Origin: CAVPRW01 sp046727435 [NCBI: bacterium]
GTDB taxonomy: Bacteria; Tectomicrobia; Entotheonellia; J063
Assembly: GCA_046727435.1 (NCBI GenBank)
Contig: JBKPCR010000277.1
Location: forward strand, 1 to 13,871
Direction of reading: 5' to 3'
Length of the DNA stretch: 13,871 bases
The translations under genes were made by a program, and so were the position numbers. The notes below the pieces were generated by a model, which did not search any database, was not told where the DNA came from, and saw only the letters and a list, made by a program, of their open reading frames with translations. Position 1 is the stretch's first letter. Every line of letters begins with the position of its first letter. Positions 3 through 13,871 of this stretch are shown here, piece by piece.

Positions 3-608
3 GGAGGCTTTACGACCTCCACCGCCCTGAAGGAAGCGGCCCAGATTGGCTTTCCCCGCGACAAGATCGTGGGGCCGTTCCCCACCTGCGCGGAGCAGGA
101 TATGGTGGCGGCCGGGGAGGCGGCCATTGGCTTCATCTGCGCCGTGTTCCACAGCACGGGGACCCACTTCCCGCTCGTCCAGGAGGTGCTCCAGTACGTC
201 TATGCCCGGGGCAAGGGGCCTGGTCCCGAACAGGATGTCGGCACGGTGTTTTGGATGCGGGGCCTGCTGTCCGGCCTGCTCACCGCGGAGGCGCTGCGCA
301 CGGCCATGCGCCACTTCGGCCACCAGCCCCTCACCGGTGCGCAGGTGCAGTGGGGGCTGGAGCACCTCACCCTCACGGCCGCCCGGCTCAAAGAGCTGGG
401 GGTGGAGGGCCTGCTCGCGCCGTTCAGCCTGTCGTGTCGCGATCATGAAGGGGGCGGCGGCGTGAAGTTCCAGCAATGGGATGGCACGCAGTGGCGGGGC
501 ATCACCGACTGGATCGCGCCGGACCAGGCGCTGGTGCGGCCGCTGGTGGAGGCAGCGGCAGCGAAGTATGCGCAGGAGAAAGGGATCACGCCGCGGAACT
601 GCTCGTAG
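3..608 (+). CDS. Branched-chain amino acid-type ABC transporter substrate-binding protein, C-terminal part (5' end outside window)
   Basis: The frame is open from base 3 to a TAG at 606-608 and has no start inside the window, so about 200 C-terminal residues are present. The product fits a periplasmic ligand-binding protein of the LivK/Peripla_BP_6 type: an early GGFTTS..ALKEAAQIGF segment, then a VGPF..C.EQD stretch, a predicted helical G.LT.EALR.AM..FG region, and a late VKFQQWDGTQWRGITDWI segment. The last resembles the usual hydrophobic C-terminal strand, where such proteins mention a working substrate or tail. Family members capture small solutes in the periplasm for a LivHMGF-type importer. 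No permease or ATPase gene follows, so partners would lie upstream of the window or elsewhere. The solute cannot be deduced. Family call is fairly secure, substrate unknown. Confidence 0.75.
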   Translation, partial: GGFTTSTALKEAAQIGFPRDKIVGPFPTCAEQDMVAAGEAAIGFICAVFHSTGTHFPLVQEVLQYVYARGKGPGPEQDVGTVFWMRGLLSGLLTAEALRTAMRHFGHQPLTGAQVQWGLEHLTLTAARLKELGVEGLLAPFSLSCRDHEGGGGVKFQQWDGTQWRGITDWIAPDQALVRPLVEAAAAKYAQEKGITPRNCS

Positions 609-1217: not shown

Positions 1218-2195
1218 TCACCGGATGACCTCGTCGGCCTGGAAGAGGAGGGTTGGGGGGATGGTGAGGCCCAGGGCCTGGGCGGTCGGGAGATTGATGA
1301 CCAGTTCGAATTTCATGGGCTGCTCCACCGGGAGGTCGGCGGGCTTGATGCCCTTGAGGATCTTGTCCACATAGGTGGCGGCTCGGCGGTACAGGTCAGG
1401 AATACTCGGCCCGTAGGCCATCAGACCGCCAACCTGCACATACTCCTTCAAGGGATACATCGCTGGCAGGCGGTGCTGGGCTGCTAAGTCGACGATGCGC
1501 CGCTGGTAGCGATTCGTGGTGGGGGCCGGCAGCACGACGAGACCATCGGCACGCTCCCGCGTGGCGGCTTCGAACGCCCGCCAAAACTCCTCGGTACGCT
1601 GGACCTTCAAGGCGAGTAGCTGCACCCCCAACGCCCGGGTTGCCTCGGGGAGTTCTAGCCAATCCGGATGGGAGGGCGGACCGAGGACGGCTACGCGCGA
1701 CACGCCTGGAACAACCTCCTTGAGGAGCTCGAGGCGCTTCCCCGCGAGCTGCGGGGTGAGATTGCTGAGCCCGGTGATGTTGCCGCCCGGCCGTGCCAGG
1801 CTGGCGACGTACCCGGCTCCGATCGGATCGCCACTGACCGTCATGACGATGGGGATCGTGCTGGTCGCGTGCTTGGCGGCGGGGATCGCGGCCGAATCGC
1901 CCGCCACGATGACGTTCACCCGGAGCTGGACCAGCTCGGCCGCCAGCTCCGGCAGCCGATCAGCCCGCTCCTCCGCATAGCGCGGTTCAATCGTGATGTT
2001 CTGGCCCTCCACCCAGCCAAGGGCGCGGAGCGCTTGAAAGAAGGGCGAGCGCTGGCGATTGGCCTCTGAGGGAGGAAACCCCGATGCGAGCCATCCCCTC
2101 TTCGCGACGTTCGCCTGCGGCTGCGCGGTGCCGGCGAGCGGCGCCACGAGGATGGCAAGGAAGATGACGACAAGGCCAGTCGTGCGGCGCGTCAT
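1218..2195 (-). CDS. ABC transporter substrate-binding protein (PF04392 / TrpX-like family)
   Basis: The 325-aa product begins with a signal peptide: MTRR, a hydrophobic run to about residue 20, and a likely cut near AGTAQ. A two-lobed periplasmic binding fold follows. Family landmarks are F.QALR.LGWVEGQNI.IE.RYAE (about 53-77), LPELAAELV.L.V.VIVA (about 81-99), the TIPIVM..SGDP...G.V.SLARPGGNITG segment (about 113-142), GKRLELLKE..P (about 152), and a C-terminal E...KFEL.INL..A..LGL.IP...L. These are standard marks of the ABC_sub_bind family, common in environmental Proteobacteria and Rokubacteria, often as orphan genes. The ATG at 2195 is preceded by CAGGAGACGACC, a good ribosome site. No permease or ATPase adjoins it on either side; the ligand is unknown (some relatives are linked to tryptophan or aromatic compounds). 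Confidence 0.9.
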   Translation of the reverse strand: MTRRTTGLVVIFLAILVAPLAGTAQPQANVAKRGWLASGFPPSEANRQRSPFFQALRALGWVEGQNITIEPRYAEERADRLPELAAELVQLRVNVIVAGDSAAIPAAKHATSTIPIVMTVSGDPIGAGYVASLARPGGNITGLSNLTPQLAGKRLELLKEVVPGVSRVAVLGPPSHPDWLELPEATRALGVQLLALKVQRTEEFWRAFEAATRERADGLVVLPAPTTNRYQRRIVDLAAQHRLPAMYPLKEYVQVGGLMAYGPSIPDLYRRAATYVDKILKGIKPADLPVEQPMKFELVINLPTAQALGLTIPPTLLFQADEVIR

Positions 2196-4293: not shown

Positions 4294-4378
4294 GGAGGTG
4301 ACGATGGTCAATTGAGCATGGCACGGAGATATGTTAACCCGTTAAAGATTGTACTGTGAGCAATCTCAAGGAGAACCA
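4294..4378 (+). promoter_or_regulatory. Leader with strong SD and mini-ORFs ahead of secreted protein 1
   Basis: GGAGG (4294-4298) precedes ATG-GTC-AAT-TGA (4304-4315), a 3-codon ORF. ATG GCA CGG... at 4318 then opens a 13-codon frame ending in TGA at 4357-4359. The true gene start is GTG 4379, with its own AAGGAG (4368-4373). The gene downstream has a matching leader, so the arrangement is repeated rather than accidental. It suggests translation-coupled or attenuating control, or a remnant of a repeated unit. Confidence 0.4.
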
Positions 4379-5365
4379 GTGAAGTTAAGCAGTTTCAGTG
4401 CATTAGCAATAGGTATCGGTCTGAGTCTGACTCTGAGTGCTGGAGCAGTACATGCGACGAAAGCCATTCTGCAATTTGAGGGTCAAGTAACACGGAACTG
4501 GAATTACACAGGGAGTTGGATAGAATCCCCTGTGGGCGCACCAGCGGTCGGGACTGTGAATTATGACGCTGACAGCTTCGGCATAGAAAATGAGTTTGAT
4601 GATCCATCCGTTCCATATGGATACGTGCTCTATAACAAACTAGCAAACAGCGCAGGCAATGTATCGACGCTGCAACTAGGAAACTTCACCTTGACAGGAG
4701 AGTTGTTGACTATCCATGTATTCAGAAATATAGAGAACGGTGATGGCAATCCTCCGGCGGACAGATTGTACCTCCGTGGACGTATTCCTGAGTGTCCGAT
4801 GAGTACCATGGGATTCAGCCCCGGCTGTGAATTCGACTTCATCGCGAATGTTCCAGCTGGTGCATGGACGAGCTTGAGCATTCCAACTGAGTTCTCAGGA
4901 CCTATTCATAACTGGGGAGTCTATGGGTATATTTGGAACGATGTTAATGGAACAACCGAGTACAAACTCTCCAGATTCTCCATCACCCCAGTGGCGCCTC
5001 CGCCGCAGTCCATCACGGTAGCAATGGTGGTCAAAGTAGGAGGAGATCTGGCTCCAATCAATCCGAAGAGCAATGGAGTTGTCCCAGTAGCAATCATGAC
5101 TACTGATGACTTCGATGCACTGAGTGTGGATCCAGCGAGTCTGAATTTTGGAGCTGAAGGTCGAGCTGACGGGACCGGCGCATCGCCTGCATCATACAAT
5201 TTGGAGGATGTTGACGATGATCAGAGACCGGATCTCGTGGCTCACTTCCGGACCCAGGAGACCGGGATCGTTTGTGGAGCCACCCTAGCTACGCTCGTCG
5301 GCCTGACTTCGAGCGACCAGGAAATCAATGGCTCGGCTTCGATCAAGACTGTGGGGTGCAAGTAG
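4379..5365 (+). CDS. Secreted protein 1: shared N-terminal domain plus extracellular C-terminal module
   Basis: The GTG at 4379 is chosen because AAGGAG stands 5 nt before it and because the next gene aligns from the same point; this gives 328 aa. Residues 1-26 form a signal peptide (VKLSSFSAL, a hydrophobic GIGLSLTLSAGA core, VHA cut site), so the protein is exported. Residues about 27-205 are homologous to the next gene's N-terminal domain: shared VGTV.YD, GN.....QLG...L.GE, ECP....C and IPTEFSGP..., ending in SITPV. Residues about 210-328 match a module often seen in exported bacterial proteins: INPKSNGVVPVAIMTTDDFDA, VDPASLNFG, EDVDDDQRPDLVAHF, RTQETGI.CG, GSASIKTVGCK. I know of no assigned function for it. 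No transmembrane anchor, LPxTG or PEP-CTERM end is visible. Lower GC than flanking genes suggests transfer. Confidence 0.85.
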   Translation: MKLSSFSALAIGIGLSLTLSAGAVHATKAILQFEGQVTRNWNYTGSWIESPVGAPAVGTVNYDADSFGIENEFDDPSVPYGYVLYNKLANSAGNVSTLQLGNFTLTGELLTIHVFRNIENGDGNPPADRLYLRGRIPECPMSTMGFSPGCEFDFIANVPAGAWTSLSIPTEFSGPIHNWGVYGYIWNDVNGTTEYKLSRFSITPVAPPPQSITVAMVVKVGGDLAPINPKSNGVVPVAIMTTDDFDALSVDPASLNFGAEGRADGTGASPASYNLEDVDDDQRPDLVAHFRTQETGIVCGATLATLVGLTSSDQEINGSASIKTVGCK

Positions 5366-5377
5366 AGTAGCTAATAA

Positions 5378-5467
5378 GGAGGCGACGATGATGGATTGAC
5401 CATGGCCACGTCGGTCGTAGCTGTTTCTAATGAAAGGTTGGACTCGAAGCAACCTGAAGGAGAGCAG
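5378..5467 (+). promoter_or_regulatory. Duplicated leader with mini-ORF ahead of secreted protein 2
   Basis: GGAGG (5378-5382), ACG, then ATG-ATG-GAT-TGA (5388-5399) mirrors the leader at 4294-4315. A second ATG at 5402 is in frame with the gene and could add 22 residues. GTG 5468, preceded by GAAGGAGAGCAG, matches the start of the paralogue and places the signal peptide at the very N-terminus, so it is preferred. Confidence 0.4.
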
Positions 5468-7267
5468 GTGAAGCAGTTCAGCAAAATCAGTGCGTTAGCA
5501 GTAGGTATCGGTCTGAGTCTAACTCTGAGTGCTGGAGCAGTGCATGCTGCCAAGGCAACCATGCAGTTTAGTGGAGCTATGTTGCAGCCAATCCCATTGC
5601 CTGGAGTAGATGCTGGGACTCCAGTAGTAGGAACAGTGACCTACGACACCAGTAACTTTGTGACTCGGTTCACTGACTTATTTAGTGCAGGGTATCTCCC
5701 GACCGCTGGAGGCAATGTCGTCACTATTCAACTGGGCACAAACACCCTGGTAGGGGAAGTATACAACCTCGTCGTGAGGAACCTTCCGCCTCACCTAGGT
5801 AGTGACGAAATCGCAATTGAAGCTACCATCGCTGAATGTCCAATCCCATATGACCCGTCGAATGAGCGACCGGAGTGTTACCTCGGATTTTACATCCGGG
5901 TGTATGATCAGCTCACGAGTTCAGCGATACCGACTACGTTCTCAGGTCCGACGCAGCATATCTTTGGACAGATTTCCCGTGACTTGATCGAGCCCGGCAG
6001 AACTGACTATGGATACTTTTCAGGTCAATCGATGACAATCACTCCTGTGAATAGTCCGCCAGTGGCAGCGATCGCACCAATCGGAAGTGCACAGGTAGGG
6101 CACCCGGTAACTCTGGATGGGAGTGGCAGTTCTGATCCTGACTCTGCCCTCGGCGACTCTATTGTTTCATATGAATGGAGGATATACACCCCCCGTTCCC
6201 ACGAGCTGTTGCACACTATAGTAGGGTCGTCCCCGATTGCAACCTTTACTCCAGATTACAGATCACTTTCCTACCAGGTAGTGCTAAAAGTGACTGATTC
6301 GTATGGAGGGTTTGATGAGGCTGAGACTCTGTTCTCGTTGGTGAATACTTCGCCAGTAGCTGACGCTGGGCCTGACATCAGCTTGGCTGCATCAGGAACC
6401 GTCTGGCTCCCATGCTACCTACCAACTCCCTGCGGTGAGAACGAGGTAGAGAACCGGAGCTATGATGAAGATGAGTATGATACCCTGCAATATGAATGGT
6501 ACATTAGGAATCCAACTGAATGTGAAAAATTTCGCTCGCCGTACTGTATGATCTTGATCGATCGCGGTCCTACAGTACAAGTGAATGTTACCACCGAGGG
6601 TGAGCATCACTTCAGACTGGCGGTCTTTGACAACTGGGGCGCTATGTCTACAGACGATGTAGTGGTAACCCTCAGGTCCAATACCCAACCAGTCGCAGTG
6701 GCCGGAGTCAATCAATCAGTCCCAGTGGAGACTGAGGTTTTCTTGGATGGCTCAGGTAGCAGTGATCCTGATGGAGACGAGCTCAGCTTCCAGTGGAGCC
6801 TGACATCGGTTCCTTCAGGAAGTCTGGCGAGTCTCATTGGTACCGGCTCCCAGCGGAGCTTCATACCAGACCTACCCGGGATCTATGTCGCTACTCTAAT
6901 TGTCAGCGATGGTCGGCTTCTCAGCAGACCCAGTTCTGTGACGATCACTGCGATGACAATCCAAGAAGCTGCCACAGTTGAACTTCAGACTACAATGGAT
7001 ACTATCAACATCGTTCCACTTGAGGTATTCACGAATTCTACCATGCAGAATACCTCGACTAATAAGATCAGTAGTGTGCTGCAGGATATCGAGCAAGGGA
7101 ACTATCAGGATGCGAAAAACAAGCTCACCCATGACTTGCTCGCTAAGTACGATGGGTGTTATCTGCGTGGAGCTGCTGACAAGAATGACTGGGTGAAAGA
7201 CTGTGCTGAGCAGCTCAAAATCTATCAGCAGATCCTGGACGCGATTGCTTTACTACCTCCTGAATAA
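5468..7267 (+). CDS. Secreted protein 2: paralogous N-terminal domain, three PKD-like domains, FIMAH-like C-terminus
   Basis: From GTG 5468 the product has 599 aa. Residues 1-27 form a signal peptide nearly identical to that of secreted protein 1. Residues about 28-190 are the shared domain, including VVGTVTYD, GNVVTIQLG, AECP...C and IPTTFSGP and ending SMTITPV. Three PKD/REJ-type immunoglobulin-like domains follow. The first (about 195-285) has the PVTLDGSGSSDPDS signature. The second (about 294-405) is degenerate, starting PVADAGPDISL. The third (about 406-497) has FLDGSGSSDPDGDELSFQW. The last 75 residues resemble a FIMAH-type helical module: DIEQGNYQDAKNKL, DGC, DKNDWVKDC and a final helix, with a likely Cys pair. 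Such modules occur on cell-surface or secreted proteins; an adhesion or matrix role is inference. No membrane anchor. Same strand and leader type as the preceding gene, probably co-transcribed. Confidence 0.87.
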   Translation: MKQFSKISALAVGIGLSLTLSAGAVHAAKATMQFSGAMLQPIPLPGVDAGTPVVGTVTYDTSNFVTRFTDLFSAGYLPTAGGNVVTIQLGTNTLVGEVYNLVVRNLPPHLGSDEIAIEATIAECPIPYDPSNERPECYLGFYIRVYDQLTSSAIPTTFSGPTQHIFGQISRDLIEPGRTDYGYFSGQSMTITPVNSPPVAAIAPIGSAQVGHPVTLDGSGSSDPDSALGDSIVSYEWRIYTPRSHELLHTIVGSSPIATFTPDYRSLSYQVVLKVTDSYGGFDEAETLFSLVNTSPVADAGPDISLAASGTVWLPCYLPTPCGENEVENRSYDEDEYDTLQYEWYIRNPTECEKFRSPYCMILIDRGPTVQVNVTTEGEHHFRLAVFDNWGAMSTDDVVVTLRSNTQPVAVAGVNQSVPVETEVFLDGSGSSDPDGDELSFQWSLTSVPSGSLASLIGTGSQRSFIPDLPGIYVATLIVSDGRLLSRPSSVTITAMTIQEAATVELQTTMDTINIVPLEVFTNSTMQNTSTNKISSVLQDIEQGNYQDAKNKLTHDLLAKYDGCYLRGAADKNDWVKDCAEQLKIYQQILDAIALLPPE

Positions 7268-7417: not shown

Positions 7418-7751
7418 GACGGTCGGGCATCAGGAGCCGGTCTGGAACAGAGGCTGGGGTGGGGATTCTCCTCCCCCCTGCCAGCCTCAGGGACGGGCCA
7501 TGTGCACCGCTGGCGTCTGCTCGCCGCATCCCTCCCGCCGCCTCCAGGCGCGTGTTCACGCCAACTTCAAGGGCTGGCCGGCGCAGCGAACCGACGACGC
7601 TGGCTTGAGCCCTGGCGAAGGGAACCTGCCTGACCGAGCCAGGTGAGGGCAAGCAGGGATATCACACGTCGATCGTCGTCACCCGTGTGCGGTGTCTATG
7701 ACGCGATCGCTGCCATACGATCGGTGGCCGAAGCCGCGAGAGATGAGCGTT
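7352..7751. other. Convergent intergenic spacer with a strong hairpin
   Basis: This stretch separates convergent genes: secreted protein 2 on the plus strand and the 176-aa protein on the minus strand. GAGGCTGG (7450-7457) pairs with CCAGCCTC (7481-7488), and inside it GGTGGGGA (7458-7465) pairs with TCCCCCC (7472-7478) with one mismatch. This makes about 15 pairs around a 6-nt loop (7466-7471). A smaller CACACG/CGTGTG pair lies at 7663-7689. No T-tract follows, so factor-independent termination is unproven. No gene is supported apart from the fragment at 7322-7417. Confidence 0.45.
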
Positions 7752-8282
7752 TCAGCCTGGAACAACCGGCTGGGAAGCGTGGCCGTTCTTTCGCTGGAGA
7801 TTGACCTGTTGCTGCGCCACATTGACCTGTCCCGCCCTACTAATCGCCACTGTGGGCATTGCCCCACGCTGGGGCCGTTGCAGCGCCTGGAGGTTCTGGA
7901 GCAGTTGGCGATTCATCCGCTCCCACAAGGGGAGGAGTTGTTCCCTGAGGCGCTGCAACGCCTCCTCGACAGCGAACCCGTCGAATTGCCCGCCATATAG
8001 TCGTCCTAACTTGACCCTAAGCGAGTCCTCTCCGAACAGTTCCTGCTCTATTGTGAGCGCCAAGTCGCCGACCCAGCCCTGAATCCTCAGAGCGTTGGCG
8101 TAGGCCATCACCGCGAGGTCGATCACCATCGTCATCGCCGGAGACGCTGCGCCATACTCTTCCAGAAGGCCCTGGCGCAACTGCCAGAGCGTGGCCATGA
8201 GCTGCGGGTCGAGAAAGCTTTCGGCGCCTAGGCGCTCTTCAACGGAGGACCCACTGCGCTCGAACTCATCATCGTAGTGCAT
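7752..8282 (-). CDS. Conserved-looking protein of unknown function, 176 aa
   Basis: The ATG at 8282 is preceded by GGGAGGAACC, a strong ribosome site, which favours it over an in-frame start at 8435. The product is mostly helical: an acidic N-terminus (MHYDDEFERS), a long helical core (about 25-135) with a hydrophobic AMTMVIDLAVMAYANALRIQGW stretch split by polar residues, E/L-rich segments, and a basic, Gln-rich tail with the repeat QVNVAQQQVNLQ (about 152-163). Comparable QVN tails occur at the ends of some small terminase-like and other phage or mobile-element proteins, but I cannot assign it to a family. It is the last gene of the minus-strand series in this window. A role in the mobile element is likely from context; the biochemical function is unknown. 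Confidence 0.65.
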   Translation of the reverse strand: MHYDDEFERSGSSVEERLGAESFLDPQLMATLWQLRQGLLEEYGAASPAMTMVIDLAVMAYANALRIQGWVGDLALTIEQELFGEDSLRVKLGRLYGGQFDGFAVEEALQRLREQLLPLWERMNRQLLQNLQALQRPQRGAMPTVAISRAGQVNVAQQQVNLQRKNGHASQPVVPG

Positions 8283-8726
8283 GGTTCCTCCCTGACGTGG
8301 CATGACCATAAGACGGGTTGGCTGTGTGACTGACCCCCCACTCTCCCTGAGGCTGTCCGGACATGGCGATGAACCCCGTGAGGGAGTCCCACCTGCCCCT
8401 GCAACAGCCCACGGGGTCTCCCACTGGTTTACCAACCGCGACCGGGCAACAATACCGCCGTGGCCCCCGCAGATCAGGCCCCAGGTTCGGGGATTTCCAG
8501 ATCACCCATGGCAGCATCATCGTGTGGCCTCTAGGCATCGCCCCACACCCCGTGATGCAACGCCTAGGGGATGCAACGCATGAACGCGTGAGGGGAGTTG
8601 ACACTAGCCGTCGGATCGGCGCGCATGCATACTCCTGCGGCCCACCAGGGAGGGATGACACGACACGTGCCTGGCGTGCGCTCTCCCGACGAGACCGGTC
8701 ATGACCCCCTTCGAGCGGTCGACCGG
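8283..8726. other. Intergenic spacer with a short direct repeat and a hairpin
   Basis: The stretch lies between two leftward genes. Open frames on both strands lack ribosome sites and have no recognisable product. GATGCAACGC occurs at 8554-8563 and again at 8570-8579, a 16-bp period. GGGAG-T-CC (8382-8389) pairs with GG-T-CTCCC (8415-8422). The promoter for the 176-aa protein is expected here. Confidence 0.4.
8554..8579. repeat. Two direct repeats GATGCAACGC, 16-bp period
   Basis: Two exact 10-bp copies (8554-8563, 8570-8579) separated by 6 bp; the spacing puts them about one and a half helical turns apart. They could be binding sites for one of the element's DNA-binding proteins (the ParB-like or the winged-helix protein), but only two copies exist here. 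Confidence 0.3.
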
Positions 8727-9101
8727 TTAACATTGGCCTTCCGGAGGATCGTCAGGGGCCATCCCCTGGCCACGCGTTAACCGCTCCACCACGGCGGCTC
8801 CACGCGGCAGTAGCAGGATATGCGTCGTGCGGCGGCTCCCAGAGCCACGCCGATTCCGCCGCAGCACAAGCCCGCGCTCTTCCAGCCGCCGCAGGGATCG
8901 GGCGCAGGCGGCGCGCTTGGCGGGGGTCCAACGGGGGTCATTGATCCCCGGGTTCCAGGGAACGCCCCAGGCGGCGAGCATGGCCTTGGCCTCCGCCGTG
9001 CCATGCGCCGTGATCCGCGCCGCCATCGCTCCAAGCCGCAGCAGGATGCGTCGCTGGAGCCAGCTCAGGCGTGTCTCGCCTGCGATCATACCCTCATGCA
9101 T
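8727..9101 (-). CDS. Small winged-helix (MarR/PadR-like) DNA-binding protein
   Basis: The 124-aa product starts at ATG 9101 with GGGGGACAGG upstream. After a short N-terminus it has a helix LSWLQRRILLRLGAMAARI (about 12-30). A spacer with AWGVPWNPGINDPRWTPAKRAA follows. The recognition-type helix ACARSLRRLEERGLVLR (about 65-81) leads to a wing strand pair RRNRRGSGSRRTTHILLLPRGAAVV (about 82-105). This is the usual order of a winged helix-turn-helix with a basic wing. There is no ligand or dimer domain, so a small repressor or copy-control type factor is plausible but not shown. It is 145 bp downstream of the zinc-ribbon gene on the same strand. The insertion between the first helix and the recognition helix is unusual. 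Confidence 0.6.
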   Translation of the reverse strand: MHEGMIAGETRLSWLQRRILLRLGAMAARITAHGTAEAKAMLAAWGVPWNPGINDPRWTPAKRAACARSLRRLEERGLVLRRNRRGSGSRRTTHILLLPRGAAVVERLTRGQGMAPDDPPEGQC

Positions 9102-9246
9102 GTGGCCTGTCCCCCTTTGTTGATTCGGTCGCATCACGCCTCTGGCGTCTGTGCTGTAGGGCTGTTGTCTTGGACGAGCCATGACCATGCGTATCGAGGC
9201 CATCAGGTGACTGAGCCACCTGCTGCACCGGGAGCCAGAGCCGCCG

Positions 9247-9714
9247 TCAGCAGGGCACCGGTCGCCGTTGTTTCGCCCGTTCGCCGGCGGCCCAGCGCCC
9301 CTGCGCAGGGTTATATACGGCGTGGCACACTTCGCAATAGATCCGGCCTGAGCCGGTATCGGCGTGCCACAATCGCGTCGATCCACACCAGCCACAGCAT
9401 TCAACGTCTTCGGCCGCAAGAGGATCACCTCCAGCGGGCGGAACCTTGGGCAAGGAGAGCTCCACGGAGGTAGCGACGGCGCTGCTCACGGAGCCCGCCG
9501 TTATGCTGATAGACGCGGTGAGAATGCCGTCGGTCATCTCTGGTATGGTGAGGGCGGCGAGGACTTCGACCTTCCGCCGCTTCACCTCGTGGAGGAGCGG
9601 TACCACCTGGTCGCGAGGGGGATTCCCCTCGCCCCGCCATCGGAGGCGCAGCTGGTCACCGTCAACCTGCGCCTCGTACCCGAGCTGTTGCAGTGCTATG
9701 ACGGCGGCGATCAT
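9247..9714 (-). CDS. TubC-docking-like / zinc-ribbon small protein
   Basis: The 155-aa product has two parts. Residues 1-55 (IAALQQLGYEAQVDGDQLRLRW, then DQVVPLLHEVKRRKVEVLAAL) resemble the small TubC N-terminal docking-type fold, which recurs in mobile-element proteins unrelated to polyketide synthesis. Residues about 105-137 form a four-cysteine zinc ribbon: C107-x2-C110 and C127-x2-C130 in CCGWCGSTRLWH and IYCEVCHAVYNP. The middle is Ser/Thr-rich linker. The ATG overlaps the stop of the ParB-like gene in an ATGA junction (9711-9714), with GGAGG inside the end of that gene, so translation is probably coupled. A helper role, such as DNA or protein docking for the ParB-like protein, is inference. 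Confidence 0.6.
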   Translation of the reverse strand: MIAAVIALQQLGYEAQVDGDQLRLRWRGEGNPPRDQVVPLLHEVKRRKVEVLAALTIPEMTDGILTASISITAGSVSSAVATSVELSLPKVPPAGGDPLAAEDVECCGWCGSTRLWHADTGSGRIYCEVCHAVYNPAQGRWAAGERAKQRRPVPC

Positions 9715-10985
9715 AGGGCTACATCCTCCAGGTTGGGGAAAGGGTCATCGGAAGATGCATTGGCCACAGGCATCGAGTCCTCTTCGGCGCTCGCTGCATC
9801 CAGGGAAGGCGCAACGGCGGTCGAGAGGGTGGCTGTGGCCCTGCGATACTCGTCTGCCTCAGCCCAGGCGGCGGTCGCGGCTTCGACCCAGGCGGTGGGT
9901 GCCGCCTCGGCCTGCCCCAGCACATAGGCGGCTAGCAGGACACAGTCGGGCCATGATAGCCTGGAGAGGCGGTCTTCCAGGACCTCCACGCCTGATTTCC
10001 GCCCGATCCGTGCCGCGCGGATGGCAGAGGATTCCGCCAACCGAGCCAGGACTTGCTGGCGGAGCTTGGCCTGACTCCTCAGAGACATCTGCCCCCGCAC
10101 CTTCATGGTCCGCGATGAAGGCGTCTGAGCGGCACGCTGACGGGCGGTGGCGGGCTCAGTGGTCGACGTGCCCTCCTGCACGTCGTGCTGAGCCTCGTGT
10201 ACCGTCGTTGCGTGGCCCGAGGGCAGGCGCTGCCGATCGGTCTTCTGGGTGACCTCTGTGACGGTATCGTTCCGCTCGGCATGATCTGCCTCCGCAGCAG
10301 CCGGCCGCGGAGGGCGCAGCTCCTGATAGACGCGATGGATCGTGCGCTTCCCCCGGCGCAATGCCTCCTTGGTGGGCTCGTCGGCCTCCTGCGTGATCAC
10401 CCTGGCCTTGTACATGGTATCCCGTCCGATCCCGGCCTGCTGCGCCATCTGCTGGAGGGTATCCACCGGGTTGTCTGATTTCAGACGAACCGTCCCGCCA
10501 CCTCGCCGCTGGTTTGCCTTGGCGTCGGCCGCGATCCACGGCTCCATCTGCAGCACCAGCTCCGCCCGCTGATAGGGCTCCAGGTTGCGCCGCGCCAGTT
10601 GATTCCGGATCATCCAGATCTTCGCCTCGAGCCGTGTCTGCACCCACGTCGGCGCCTCGACAGTGGTATAGTCAAGGCCATGGCCGCGACAAATGGCGTA
10701 GCGGGTGTGGCCGTCGAGCAACGTCCATGGGCGCGGCTCCCCATGGTCACAGAACCCACACAGCCAGACCACGCTCCCCTCGCGCTTCTCGATGAGGGCA
10801 GTAGCGCGTGTGAACGGAGTCCCTGGCGGACAGGAGGGGCAGACCTTGGCGGGCTCCTCGCCCGCCCAGACCACCAGCGCGTCGCGGCAACCGTCTGCCA
10901 ACAGGTTCGCCTCCAGCTGGGCATATTCCTCCGCCGTCGGCGGAGGAATGACGGCCTGCAATTCGGGATCGATGTACAGGTCCAT
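9711..10985 (-). CDS. ParB-like N-terminal domain protein with zinc-knuckle insertion
   Basis: The 424-aa product opens with a ParB/Srx-type domain: PPPTAEEYAQLEANLLADGCRDALVVW (about 14-40) and LLDGHTRYAICRGHGLDY (about 89-106), the latter the typical DGHxRY motif. In between lies C49-x2-C52 and C76-x2-C79 (VCPSC, WLCGFC), a probable zinc knuckle that standard ParB proteins lack. A helix-turn-helix region follows: IWMIRNQLARRNLEPYQRAEL (about 123-143) and TLQQMAQQAGIGRDTMYKARVI (about 176-197). Then comes a polar, low-complexity linker (about 225-290) and an Ala-rich C-terminal domain (about 320-380). The ATG at 10985 has AGGAGAGGCCCA upstream. ParB-like proteins segregate plasmids or act as regulators or nucleases in mobile elements; no ParA is visible in the window. 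Confidence 0.78.
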   Translation of the reverse strand: MDLYIDPELQAVIPPPTAEEYAQLEANLLADGCRDALVVWAGEEPAKVCPSCPPGTPFTRATALIEKREGSVVWLCGFCDHGEPRPWTLLDGHTRYAICRGHGLDYTTVEAPTWVQTRLEAKIWMIRNQLARRNLEPYQRAELVLQMEPWIAADAKANQRRGGGTVRLKSDNPVDTLQQMAQQAGIGRDTMYKARVITQEADEPTKEALRRGKRTIHRVYQELRPPRPAAAEADHAERNDTVTEVTQKTDRQRLPSGHATTVHEAQHDVQEGTSTTEPATARQRAAQTPSSRTMKVRGQMSLRSQAKLRQQVLARLAESSAIRAARIGRKSGVEVLEDRLSRLSWPDCVLLAAYVLGQAEAAPTAWVEAATAAWAEADEYRRATATLSTAVAPSLDAASAEEDSMPVANASSDDPFPNLEDVAL

Positions 10986-11407
10986 TGGGCCTCTCCTCTG
11001 GATTTCACGAGCTTCGATGATTGGTCCCCCGTCGTAATGGCGGCTCTGTCGACAGACTACAGCTGGTTAGCAGCTGACGCCCACCAATGCACAGCACAAG
11101 GACGTAAGCCAGAGGGCACCCAACGCTGCCATCCCTCTGTACCGGAGTAGGATCCATTGGTGCAGGCCGCTAAGGCGCCCATTGCTAAAAACATGTGTCC
11201 TGCTCATAGCGCTCTTGCGCCGCCCCGCCGGCAAAAGTCGGCATCTCCGCTACGGCACGTTGGGCGCCATGTCATACAGCTGCGCGGCGAATTCCCTCAT
11301 TGAGGGGGTCACCTGCAACCGATGAAACGTAGCTATCTATGCGCCTGCTCCCTTGCTTCCGAGTGGGGGAAGGGCGCTTCTTTCTCGTGTTTATTTCGAG
11401 GCTAGCC
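10986..11407. other. Intergenic region upstream of parB-like gene, rich in palindromes
   Basis: The 422-bp spacer separates the Spo11-like gene from the ParB-like gene and should contain the latter's promoter. It carries CTGTCGACAG (11046-11055), the repeat CAGCTG-GTTAG-CAGCTG (11060-11076), and CACCAATG/CATTGGTG (11082-11089 and 11155-11162). AGAGGG/CCCTCT (11111-11116 and 11133-11138) is nested inside the last pair. These crowd within about 120 bp next to a parB-like gene, so a centromere-type (parS-like) site or operator is possible. From 11163 to 11407 I see no feature. Confidence 0.4.
11046..11162. promoter_or_regulatory. Palindrome cluster, candidate parS/operator
   Basis: Two self-complementary blocks (CTGTCGACAG and paired CAGCTG hexamers) and two nested inverted repeats sit 60-180 bp upstream of the ParB-like start. 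The exact binding site cannot be told apart from incidental symmetry by reading alone. Confidence 0.3.
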
Positions 11408-12280
11408 TCACGATAGCGATGCCTGTCCCGTCCAGCGATCTAGGATATGCTTGAGCGACTCCGTTTCAGCCTGCTCCACCAGCTGGGATGACTCCCAGAT
11501 ATCCCCATTGATATACCCACGAATGGCCTCTTCCACGACCGCACGCAGGACGTTCGGGTTCAGCGCGTCCAACTCCCACGCCCTCGCCCCGTGGTGGTTG
11601 CGATACCAGTGATAGCGCGAGTCCTTCTGTTTGGTGTCCACGTCGAAGCCGGGCAGATCATGCTCACGAATCAGGGCGTCGGTCAGGGCAATCCGCCGCC
11701 AGGTAAACCCATCGCCGCTCCCGTACTCGACGAGGCGTTCAGGGGCATATCGATCGCCCATATCGAGGCCGCTGGGGTCCCAGTCGCCCAGGTACAACAG
11801 GATGATCGGTTTCGCGCTGGCCTGAATCTCGCCCGCGAGCTCATGCGCTTTGGTCGCACTCACGTAGCCATGCCAGGGTCGAAAGGTGACGCCATACTCC
11901 TCGAACACCGGGGCCAGGGTGCCCTTCACGGTGCTTTTCTCGCTGATCACCTCGACGAGCACGGGTCGATACGCCCAATGGTCGCGGCGATAGGCCCGCT
12001 TTACGGTGCGCACAAAGGCGGCGGGGTTTTTCCAGGCATTCACTCGCTCGGCTTCGCGGGTTTCATCCACAATCCAGTCCCATGAGACAATTTCATGCTC
12101 ACGGGCATAGACCAGATGTCGACTGATGCGATTAGTGCAATTCTTCGACATGGACTCCAGTAAGCCACGCACAAAGAGTTGATAGCACACGGCCCGCACG
12201 CTGGCAGGTTGGATCTCCTCCAAAATGCGGACACATGCGTTAATCAGCGACAGGACCTCTTGCGTCTTCCCTCGTGACAT
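11408..12280 (-). CDS. Stand-alone topoisomerase VI A / Spo11-like protein (Mini-A-like) with Toprim domain
   Basis: The 290-aa product starts at ATG 12280, with AAAGGAG nine nucleotides before it. Residues about 20-80 resemble the winged-helix part of topoisomerase VI A: VRAVCYQLFVRG places Tyr33 where Spo11 and TopoVIA carry the catalytic tyrosine. NRISRHLVYAREHEIVSWDWIVDETR follows. A Toprim-type domain occupies about 105-245: VLVEVISEKSTV (Glu114), GYVSATKAHELAGEI, and LYLGDWDPSGLDM (Asp166 and Asp168, the DxD motif). The conserved-looking WELDALNPNVLRAVVEEAI comes near the end. The length (290 versus about 350-400 for TopoVIA) and the absence of any GHKL B subunit nearby fit the orphan Mini-A proteins reported from mobile elements. 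The substrate, and whether it cuts DNA, are unknown. Confidence 0.75.
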   Translation of the reverse strand: MSRGKTQEVLSLINACVRILEEIQPASVRAVCYQLFVRGLLESMSKNCTNRISRHLVYAREHEIVSWDWIVDETREAERVNAWKNPAAFVRTVKRAYRRDHWAYRPVLVEVISEKSTVKGTLAPVFEEYGVTFRPWHGYVSATKAHELAGEIQASAKPIILLYLGDWDPSGLDMGDRYAPERLVEYGSGDGFTWRRIALTDALIREHDLPGFDVDTKQKDSRYHWYRNHHGARAWELDALNPNVLRAVVEEAIRGYINGDIWESSQLVEQAETESLKHILDRWTGQASLS

Positions 12281-12304
12281 CGAGGCGGCTCCTTTATCTC
12301 TTCC

Positions 12305-12330
12305 TCACACCAGCGTATTAAATCGTGTGA
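12305..12330. repeat. Inverted repeat TCACAC-N14-GTGTGA between primase and Spo11-like genes
   Basis: Exact 6-bp arms (12305-12310 and 12325-12330) frame an AT-rich 14-bp centre in the 53-bp gap between the two genes. It may be an operator or RNA hairpin; the short gap suggests co-transcription of primase and the Spo11-like gene. Confidence 0.35.
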
Positions 12331-12333
12331 TGG

Positions 12334-13467
12334 TTACCCTGAGCGCTCCACCAACCGCGCAAACGCCTGCCGCTCGGCCTCATCGCGCACGAGCCCCCCA
12401 TCCATCTCCATGATGGCGGCGCGTTCAGCTAAACGCTCACGGCGCTCTTCCGGCCAGCGGACCACTTCCCGCCACCACATGGGCTTGTTTCCTAGCCCTT
12501 CACGCACCCAAGTCCTTAGATCCACGATAGCTTGGAGCATCGCATTCGCATCGCCCCAGTAAGGTCGCCAGCGCTTGGCTCGTGGTCCCAGAGCCTTGAG
12601 CCACCACGCCGAAGCCTCGTCACCAGCCTCATCGGCATCAAATGATACGAGGACCATCGAACACAAGGCGAGCCGGCCGATCCATCGTTCCAGACGGCCC
12701 CCAGCTGTGCTCCCGGTGGCGACCATGGCCAGGAGATCACCAGCCTCTTGCGTGACGGACAAGGCATCGAGTTCCCCCTCCACCAGCATCGCGGGGACAT
12801 TAGGGCGCAGCGTATTGATCTGGTACAACGGCTTGCCGCCTCCAGCGATTGGTCGATACCGCTCATCCTTCGGGATGCCGTTGTCGTCCCGTCGGAAGGT
12901 GACTTTCCAGACCGCCGGTCCCACCAGCCATGGAAAGACGATTCCTTGCAAGAGGTGAATTTTCTTGTGATCAGCCGGTAGTCCCCACTGCCCAGGGACT
13001 TCCCACTCCTCTGTCACGTGGTAGCCGAGCCGGGCTTCCCGAATTGTCTCATTAGTGAGGCCGCGTCGGTGGAGGTAGGCTAGGGCCTTGACCCCCGCGG
13101 GCGTCCATAAGGTGCGCTCACACGGTTCGATGAAGTCACGAGCGCGGGCTTGCCAGGCAGGGCTCGGGGGCATCGCCAGTGGCGGCGGTTTGGGTGTCGA
13201 GTACTGGCGTGACGTTTGCGGGAGCGGCTGTCCCAGGCGCTCGCAGGCTTGCCGGAATGTCAGCCCCTCGTGGTCGCGCAGGTACTGGATGGCATCGCCC
13301 TTCCGGCCGCACACCCGACACCAGTAATGCGGCTGGTCGGCGTCGGGCCACACGTGAAACCGATCATCTCCACCACACCAAGGGCAGCGCCCGACATACT
13401 CGCCCCCATCGGTGTTCGCGACCTTGTGCAGAGCTGTGTCACGGCTGAGCAAGTGGAGCAGATTCAT
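12334..13467 (-). CDS. DnaG-like DNA primase (CHC2 zinc finger + Toprim), without helicase domain
   Basis: The 377-aa product has an N-terminal zinc-binding domain (about 20-80). Four ligands are visible, C28-x2-C31 in GRCPWCGGDDRFHV and C50-x2-C53 in YWCRVCGRKGDAI, followed by EGLTFRQACERLG. A DnaG-type core follows (about 115-225): LAYLHRRGLTNETIREARLGY, IVFPWL, YRPIAGGGKPLYQINTL. The Toprim catalytic motifs are VEGELDALSV (229-238), SFDADEAGDEAS (275-286) and the DANAML segment (306-311). There is no Walker motif, so no fused helicase, unlike phage T7 gp4. It would synthesise RNA primers on the element's DNA. The ATG at 13467 lacks a clear Shine-Dalgarno. An iteron array lies just upstream, as expected for a replication gene. 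Confidence 0.87.
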   Translation of the reverse strand: MNLLHLLSRDTALHKVANTDGGEYVGRCPWCGGDDRFHVWPDADQPHYWCRVCGRKGDAIQYLRDHEGLTFRQACERLGQPLPQTSRQYSTPKPPPLAMPPSPAWQARARDFIEPCERTLWTPAGVKALAYLHRRGLTNETIREARLGYHVTEEWEVPGQWGLPADHKKIHLLQGIVFPWLVGPAVWKVTFRRDDNGIPKDERYRPIAGGGKPLYQINTLRPNVPAMLVEGELDALSVTQEAGDLLAMVATGSTAGGRLERWIGRLALCSMVLVSFDADEAGDEASAWWLKALGPRAKRWRPYWGDANAMLQAIVDLRTWVREGLGNKPMWWREVVRWPEERRERLAERAAIMEMDGGLVRDEAERQAFARLVERSG

Positions 13468-13484
13468 TGCAACCGACTTTCTAG

Positions 13485-13636
13485 GAGAACCATGACAATC
13501 CTGGCAATCATCGTCTTAACTCATTGAATTAATTAATGCAAAATGGTTATTATGATGGTTATCGTCAAGTAAGCGCTCATAACCGTTCTGATGGTTCTCA
13601 TCATTTTCATGGTTCTCACCATTCTGATGGTTCTCA
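13485..13636. repeat. Iteron array and AT-rich tract, candidate replication origin
   Basis: Three direct copies of an 18-bp unit with core ATGGTTCTCA start at 13591, 13609 and 13627, exactly 18 bp apart. Two related ATGGTTAT copies lie at 13543-13550 and 13555-13562. An inverted half-unit ATAACCGT is at 13579-13586, and an inverted GAGAACCATGA at 13485-13495. Between the inverted and direct copies lies an AT-rich tract (about 13518-13545, with GAATTAATTAATG). Iterons plus an AT-rich unwinding-type segment, next to a primase gene, is the layout of iteron-controlled origins. The third iteron overlaps the stop codon of the upstream gene (13634-13636). Confidence 0.65.
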
Positions 13637-13871
13637 TCTCTCTGCTGTCTCCTCGAACCCCCGCTGCTCGTCTGGCTGAGACCAGCCAGGAAGATGATAT
13701 GGTTGTGATTTCCCTTCCTTCTTGCCCGGCATGAGCTTCCCCTTCTCGACCAGCCCTGTGATCTCCCGACTCACATTGCCTTTGCCCTTGTCTAAAGACT
13801 CGGCGATCTCGGTCGTCGTCGCACATCCTCCCATCGCTTTGACCGCGGTCAGGATAGCGGCTTGCACGCTA
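13634..13871 (-). CDS. C-terminal winged-helix part of a larger protein (cut at window edge)
   Basis: The frame is open to the window end on the minus strand and stops with TGA at 13636-13634. GTG at 13867 is the first possible start, but the codon before it is still open, so the gene most likely continues beyond 13871. The visible 77 residues form a winged-helix domain: QAAILTAVKAMGGCATTTEIAESLDKGKGNVSREITGLVEKGKLMPGKKEGKSQPYHL, with the helix-turn-helix at about 17-42. In mobile elements such a domain often ends RepA-like or RecA-fold ATPases, which would fit beside an origin and a primase, but no ATPase motif is in view. Its C-terminus runs into the first iteron. Confidence 0.55.
   Translation of the reverse strand, partial: SVQAAILTAVKAMGGCATTTEIAESLDKGKGNVSREITGLVEKGKLMPGKKEGKSQPYHLPGWSQPDEQRGFEETAER

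Follow-up and report, generated by a model that had tools for sequence, protein, structure and literature searches.

Mini-A is reportedly a type IIB topoisomerase family of viruses, said to have been described by Takahashi et al. 2020. Here we describe a 290-amino-acid (aa) protein encoded on the minus strand of a 13,871-nucleotide stretch (positions 1 to 13,871 of contig JBKPCR010000277.1, hereafter the window) of the bacterium CAVPRW01 sp046727435 (Tectomicrobia; Entotheonellia), which we assign with near certainty to Mini-A, a short branch of the type IIB topoisomerase A-subunit kind that lacks a B subunit. According to the available text of the reviews PMC7614492, PMC8185306, PMC8084294 and PMC11302465, the function of Mini-A is unknown and archaeal Mini-A is uncharacterised; one figure legend there takes a gene of phage NP1 as its Mini-A example, and one of the reviews already terms the topoisomerase (Topo) VI-A/Mini-A module a nuclease module. 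In M. mazei Topo VI, the catalytic tyrosine is Y106, the metal residues are E202, D254 and D256, and an electrostatic clasp between R102 and E342 holds the tyrosine off the DNA and restrains cleavage, E342Q yielding a cleavage-prone enzyme (PMC13040014, 2026). That report, in its accessible part, presents clasp and chemistry as common to Top6A and Spo11, leaves Mini-A unmentioned, and describes a latch (residues 44-67 of M. mazei Top6A) that is essential for relaxation in that enzyme (PMC13040014). Mouse SPO11 cleaves DNA by itself, in dimers whose active sites are hybrid, favours bendable, underwound DNA and can reseal nicks, as stated in the available portion of PMC11922746.

The window gene is an open reading frame (ORF) running from 12280 to 11408 with an ATG start, an AAAGGAG motif ending 8 bases upstream of the ATG, and it is more than a chance frame, since relatives reach 53% identity. 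The original prediction, made from the letters alone, had recognised a TopoVIA/Spo11-like protein, and this identity held and could be narrowed to Mini-A: PHROG 6247 ('DNA topoisomerase') matched across residues 9-285 (E=6e-52), the Mini-A of Pseudomonas phage NP1 shares 32% identity with the window protein across 259 residues (120 bits), and Topo VI-A came out on top in Foldseek (see below). By tblastn, relatives were found in 70 phage and 39 plasmid records; among the matches listed, a DNA topoisomerase annotation is carried by 19 of 40 phage matches, while the name Mini-A appears in two archaeal plasmid records, to whose Topo Mini-A-annotated proteins the window protein is 29.5% identical. 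Short, A-like and with the tyrosine and the Toprim acidic residues conserved, the protein has the features that go with this name, and its relatives in phages, plasmids and viral contigs show carriage of the family by mobile elements; the window gene's own mobile-element setting we infer from just its primase and ParB-like neighbours. Some hosts carry more than one Mini-A copy: two matches (L057 and L059) lie on a single 21-kb Ktedonospora contig, and two occur in one genome (G002).

Relatives were collected by a single-sequence scan (4 viral loci) and by profile scans (best 80 of 167 genome relatives and best 80 of 264 viral relatives), and the resulting 168 Mini-A loci, including 7 annotated phage/plasmid loci, comprise 160 with a frame of at least 250 aa; the 8 with shorter frames (L017, L019, L039, L071, L093, L102, L103 and L104) were dropped. 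Removal of redundancy at 80% left 143 sequences, the window's included, and the alignments A2 and A4 used 109 of 128 and 88 of 125 filter-passing relatives, respectively. Tyr33 (in VRAVCYQLF), Glu114 (SEKS) and Asp166/Asp168 (GDWDPSG) lie in the 290-aa ORF exactly where the original prediction had placed them, and the tyrosine proved to be conserved, as Arg29 and Tyr33 are each present in 141 of the 143 non-redundant sequences, with a gap in the other 2. Glu236 is found in 142, and Glu114, Asp166 and Asp168 in all 143; the counts for the two aspartates are partly by construction, because one fetch pattern contained GDxD, while R29, Y33, E114 and E236 lay outside the fetch patterns. When the Mini-A profile is aligned globally to one built from 33 archaeal Topo VI-A sequences, a narrow template set, R29, Y33, E114, D166, D168 and E236 align exactly with the six M. 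mazei residues named above, whose numbering was checked by letters against the Protein Data Bank (PDB) chain sequence. This alignment scores 27.6 (E 3e-5, probability 46%) and beats 100 of 100 block-shuffled controls (maximum 10.2). All six residues occur together in 140 of the 143 sequences, two of the others lacking an aligned N-terminus and one having Ser at the clasp Glu; the family has therefore kept, at the sequence level, both the residues for cutting and those of the brake. That the predicted clasp is kept in a family without the ATPase that normally moves the winged helix is a modest new addition.

An AlphaFold2 (AF2) model built from a 110-sequence alignment reached a predicted local distance difference test score (pLDDT) of 95.3 and a predicted template modelling score (pTM) of 0.90. 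Foldseek against PDB returned two matches below 0.001, both of them M. jannaschii Topo VI-A chains (1d3y; 1.3e-4 and 2.5e-4), and by VIA-align the model matches Topo VI-A 1d3y with Z 11.2 (root-mean-square deviation [rmsd] 3.3, 144 aligned) and Spo11 8urq with Z 9.5 (rmsd 3.6, 137 aligned). A viral structure library gave one match below 0.001, an unnamed 152-aa protein. When folded alone, the N-terminal 80 residues have a pLDDT of 86, and on this model the N-terminal domain is likely winged-helix-like.

No GHKL ATPase had been seen in view of the gene, and indeed none is present among the 20 window ORFs scanned with Pfam. The predicted absence of a B subunit extends to relatives: the Top6B transducer domain PF09239 turned up in none of the 23 searched bacterial genomes with relatives, a set that includes many metagenome-assembled genomes of unstated completeness and to which the host's own genome does not belong, and in 0 of 50 Mini-A-bearing phage, plasmid and viral records, fragments included, drawn from 88 such loci. 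Across all searched genomes with relatives, PF09239 was detected in 3 of 26, all 3 of them archaeal, and each gene stands beside a normal Topo VI-A. The hallmark of Topo VI and Topo VIII, a GHKL ATPase present as a separate B subunit or as a fused B domain, was thus found neither in the 20 scanned window ORFs nor, searched for as PF09239, in the bacterial genomes and mobile-element records with relatives.

We consider it fairly probable that this protein of the Mini-A, type IIB A-subunit kind works without ATP as a homodimer like Spo11, cutting its element's DNA where this is bent or supercoiled and perhaps resealing it; with mouse SPO11 as the precedent, we infer the cleavage to be homodimeric, ATP-independent and tyrosine-mediated. 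A winged-helix-like domain at the N-terminus, bearing the predicted catalytic Tyr33, would be followed by a Toprim domain with Glu114, Asp166 and Asp168, and two copies would dimerise with the Tyr33 of each subunit set opposite its partner's Toprim metal site. The dimer would cut through both strands, or else nick, with 5'-phosphotyrosine links as the result, and a clasp between Arg29 and Glu236 would hold this cleavage in check until released by DNA bending, supercoiling or dimerisation instead of by an ATPase partner. As a result, the replicating DNA of the element may be relaxed or resolved, or recombination may be fed by a protein-capped break. The fuller version, in which an autonomous, phage-borne, ATP-independent Spo11-like dimer, its Arg29-Glu236 brake freed directly by DNA bending or supercoiling with neither an ATPase nor a TOP6BL-like partner, resolves or breaks replicating element DNA, is one that we put forward tentatively, as a serious possibility.

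Several observations weigh against this reading. Tyr33 is preceded by 32 residues, at most 40 in the open frame, versus 105 in M. mazei, such that the N-terminal latch segment is without counterpart in the window protein, and this missing latch argues against ordinary topoisomerase action. Relatives' starts were picked nearest the window's start and their N-terminal lengths lean short, hence the open-frame bound was used here too: among 140 relatives with the tyrosine, the open frame is too short for a latch in 93, and a longer N-terminus is possible in 47, the latter because starts were chosen near the window's. At the level of sequence families, neither Pfam nor NCBIfam yields a significant match to the protein, none of the Pfam Topo VI models matches it, and few of 110 relatives match TP6A_N (4) or TOP6A-Spo11_Toprim (3); local hhalign against Topo VI-A is not significant (probability 2-4%, score 24.3 versus shuffles up to 29.3), and a PDB sequence search with the protein and the family profile gave no Topo VI match, the single protein producing two chance-level matches. 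Superposition on Topo VI-A over the whole length is poor (template modelling score 0.34-0.37, rmsd 17), therefore the two domains do not superpose together on Topo VI-A, and the fold matches cover the Toprim part only. By VIA-align, where we treat rows within 1 Z unit as tied, MksG (8b7f; Z 10.9, rmsd 4.2, 137 aligned), JetD (7til; Z 10.7, rmsd 4.2, 133 aligned) and a small Toprim protein (2fcj; Z 10.4, rmsd 2.6, 107 aligned) tie with Topo VI-A. The predicted winged helix also drew modest fold evidence: the N-terminal domain alone had no significant Foldseek match (best E 1.6), and VIA listed general winged-helix proteins and others, led by regulators with this fold (Zur at Z 7.4, rmsd 2.5, 60 aligned), which is modest evidence because a Z of 7-8 can come from a common arrangement; Topo VI-A is absent from this match list, which excludes nothing. 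Finally, no biochemistry for any Mini-A was found in the accessible text of the literature searched.

The original prediction had further linked the enzyme to the adjacent primase and an iteron origin, and it is this functional tie that the comparison of loci did not bear out. As an origin-nicking or initiation enzyme, the protein would work with the primase at the repeat array, and the window indeed has a primase gene adjoining Mini-A and, before that primase, four exact ATGGTTCTC 9-mers (13485-13635), three direct at 18 bp spacing and one inverted, with no further exact copies elsewhere in the window. Among the 42 loci with 40% identity or more, here called close and counting the window itself (neighbours grouped into single-linkage clusters), a Toprim/P4-type primase-helicase cluster lies near 15, alongside integrase-type (25/42), HNH-like (7/42), portal-like (6/42), terminase-like (6/42) and capsid-like (4/42) clusters, labels that are partly our own reading, backed by the annotation of a Cupriavidus plasmid locus (L006) and by counts of Pfam and PHROG matches for 110 ORFs lying downstream at 12 loci. 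Given the integrase- and capsid-type clusters, at least some close relatives thus reside in phage-like elements that have integrated. Of the 41 other close loci, however, just one (L032, 40% identity) has a primase directly related to the window's type, and there it lies downstream of Mini-A, not upstream; the primase of L021 is linked only via a 62-residue match to that of L032. Among distant relatives, one locus (L049) has a weak match to the window primase upstream of Mini-A; a primase about 3 kb upstream of Mini-A in phage NP1, and matches of the window's ParB-like family phrog_4715 to 2 of 150 neighbour ORFs, weakly favour a partnership. These 150, out of 181 same-strand neighbour ORFs at 41 distant viral loci (last-listed loci left out), contain no PHROG family that matches more than 3 of them and no recurring primase family, the commonest named functions being DNA methyltransferases, thymidylate synthases, helicases and ParB-like proteins; IMG/VR scans for a constant partner, run from one sequence at a time (the ParB-like protein, then the primase) and thus reaching close relatives only, also found none. 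Since neighbours vary, a fixed primase partnership is therefore unsupported, and the repeats lie between the helix-turn-helix (HTH) gene and the primase, an operator-like placement. Tyr-Toprim enzymes of this class are not known to be Rep-type initiators, which also counts against origin nicking, and we judge this role very unlikely. Topology or the resolution of intermediates is favoured over it, since neither an origin nor a primase constantly accompanies the gene.

Alternatively, the protein might be a phage or element Spo11 whose protein-capped double-strand breaks start recombination-dependent replication or repair, which we regard as conceivable though rather doubtful. This reading is kept alive by the missing latch and by the gene order of NP1, where Mini-A directly precedes a Sak4-like gene and a Cas4-type exonuclease, a helicase and a ligase are close by, and it is also consistent with the lack of a B subunit and with the partner-free cleavage by a Spo11 dimer described in the accessible part of PMC11922746. 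Yet no recombination-named family is among the 25 commonest of the 159 PHROG families for the 150 distant neighbour ORFs, and no recombination family was identified in the window. The ties in the Toprim fold noted above, together with weak matches among 110 relatives to JetD_C (1/110; 0.009) and to DUF2399 (6/110; best 5e-5), would instead fit a defence-type Toprim nuclease like JetD or MksG (the Wadjet nuclease), with the N-domain tyrosine unused. Such a protein would hardly be expected to conserve Tyr33, the MksG N-domain being without an equivalent catalytic tyrosine, nor to be carried by phages and plasmids, and PADLOC returned no match for the Mini-A protein; we consider a nuclease of this type improbable.

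Table 1. Features of the window that bear on the Mini-A gene and its surroundings
Feature	Coordinates	Strand	Basis
Three more ORFs assigned to the presumed element (155, 233 and 227 aa, the first overlapping the second)	7752..9714	(-)	No significant family
ParB-like protein, 424 aa	9711..10985	(-)	phrog_4715 8e-6; no Pfam or NCBIfam match
Mini-A gene, 290 aa; Topo VI-A/Spo11-like predicted DNA-cleaving subunit without B subunit	11408..12280	(-)	PHROG 6247, NP1 identity, AF2, Foldseek
Glu236 codon in WELDAL, predicted clasp glutamate (M. mazei E342)	11573..11575	(-)	142/143; in register
Asp166-Trp167-Asp168 codons, predicted Toprim DxD (M. mazei D254/D256)	11777..11785	(-)	143/143, partly by fetch pattern; in register
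Glu114 codon, predicted Toprim metal ligand (M. mazei E202)	11939..11941	(-)	143/143; in register
Tyr33 codon, predicted catalytic tyrosine (M. mazei Y106)	12182..12184	(-)	141/143 non-redundant sequences, 2 gaps; in register
Arg29 codon, predicted clasp arginine (M. mazei R102)	12194..12196	(-)	141/143 non-redundant sequences, 2 gaps; in register
DnaG-like primase, 377 aa, zinc ribbon and Toprim_2	12334..13467	(-)	Pfam PF01807 1e-7, PF13155 2e-5; PHROG primases
Short repeat array, three direct ATGGTTCTC and one inverted, just before the primase	13485..13638	.	Exact 9-mers
MarR-like winged-helix ORF, 77 aa, 4 bases from the window end, possibly cut	13634..13867	(-)	Pfam MarR_2 E=6e-4, below curated cut-off

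The replication module that had been proposed around Mini-A is in part borne out (Table 1), as the DnaG-type primase with its zinc ribbon and Toprim domain and the short repeat array are present, but the ParB-like protein is recognised by PHROGs only and the HTH match falls below the Pfam cut-off. The array is a candidate operator or weak iteron and could equally be the operator of the HTH gene. The N-terminal part of the primase resembles DnaG-like domains of reverse-transcriptase defence proteins (PADLOC, 2e-11), which is probably just the common primase domain, and the three ORFs beyond the ParB-like gene have only weak Lar-type zinc and HTH matches. A Pfam match to Adenovirus E4 ORF3 (0.17) was dismissed as chance. 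Searches for tRNA and Rfam families found nothing, nor did a distant search of plasmid DNA with window positions 7700-13871; a search of viral contigs with one exact 30-base pattern was likewise empty, and promoter and terminator scans stayed at chance level.

On the other side of the presumed element, a stretch of low guanine-plus-cytosine content (about 51-53%; 4349-7267, plus strand) separates it from host-like genes and encodes two secreted-looking proteins of 338 and 623 aa that have a near-identical signal-peptide-like stretch, the second with PKD domains. Further out lie an ABC_sub_bind substrate-binding protein (1218-2195, minus strand; 1e-41) and a weak periplasmic-binding-protein match below cut-off (69-608, plus strand; 8e-5). 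As these are host-like chromosome genes, the element is therefore probably integrated, and the Mini-A gene is presumably encoded by an integrated mobile element. At the Cupriavidus plasmid locus mentioned above (L006, 7720-17764), an integrase, a group II intron reverse transcriptase, an HTH protein, a Toprim protein, a DEAD/DEAH helicase, Mini-A and a major capsid protein are found; short capsid-coding integrated elements such as this one may be phage satellites.

Compared with the described systems, the window protein resembles Mini-A in size, in its tyrosine and Toprim residues, in lacking a B subunit, in its mobile-element setting and in its identity to the NP1 protein, with no essential difference, this member standing beside a DnaG-like primase and a ParB-like gene. 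With Topo VI-A (M. jannaschii 1d3y, M. mazei 2q2e/9o8p) it shares the six active-site and clasp residues in order and its best Foldseek match, but its N-terminus is about 70 residues shorter, the latch and B subunit are missing, and identity is about 15% in the global profile alignment. To Spo11, with which it was compared by fold and not by residue alignment, it is linked by the match to 8urq and, as far as the accessible texts go, by the clasp and chemistry reported for Top6A and Spo11 (PMC13040014) and the partner-free cleavage by mouse SPO11 (PMC11922746), whereas it belongs to prokaryotic mobile elements and has no meiotic partners. The window protein thus joins a known, functionally unexplained family. 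If Mini-A does cleave alone, it would provide a minimal model for Spo11 chemistry and show how a nuclease is controlled without an ATPase, and the predicted clasp pair offers a single-residue test (Glu236Gln) of this control of cleavage.
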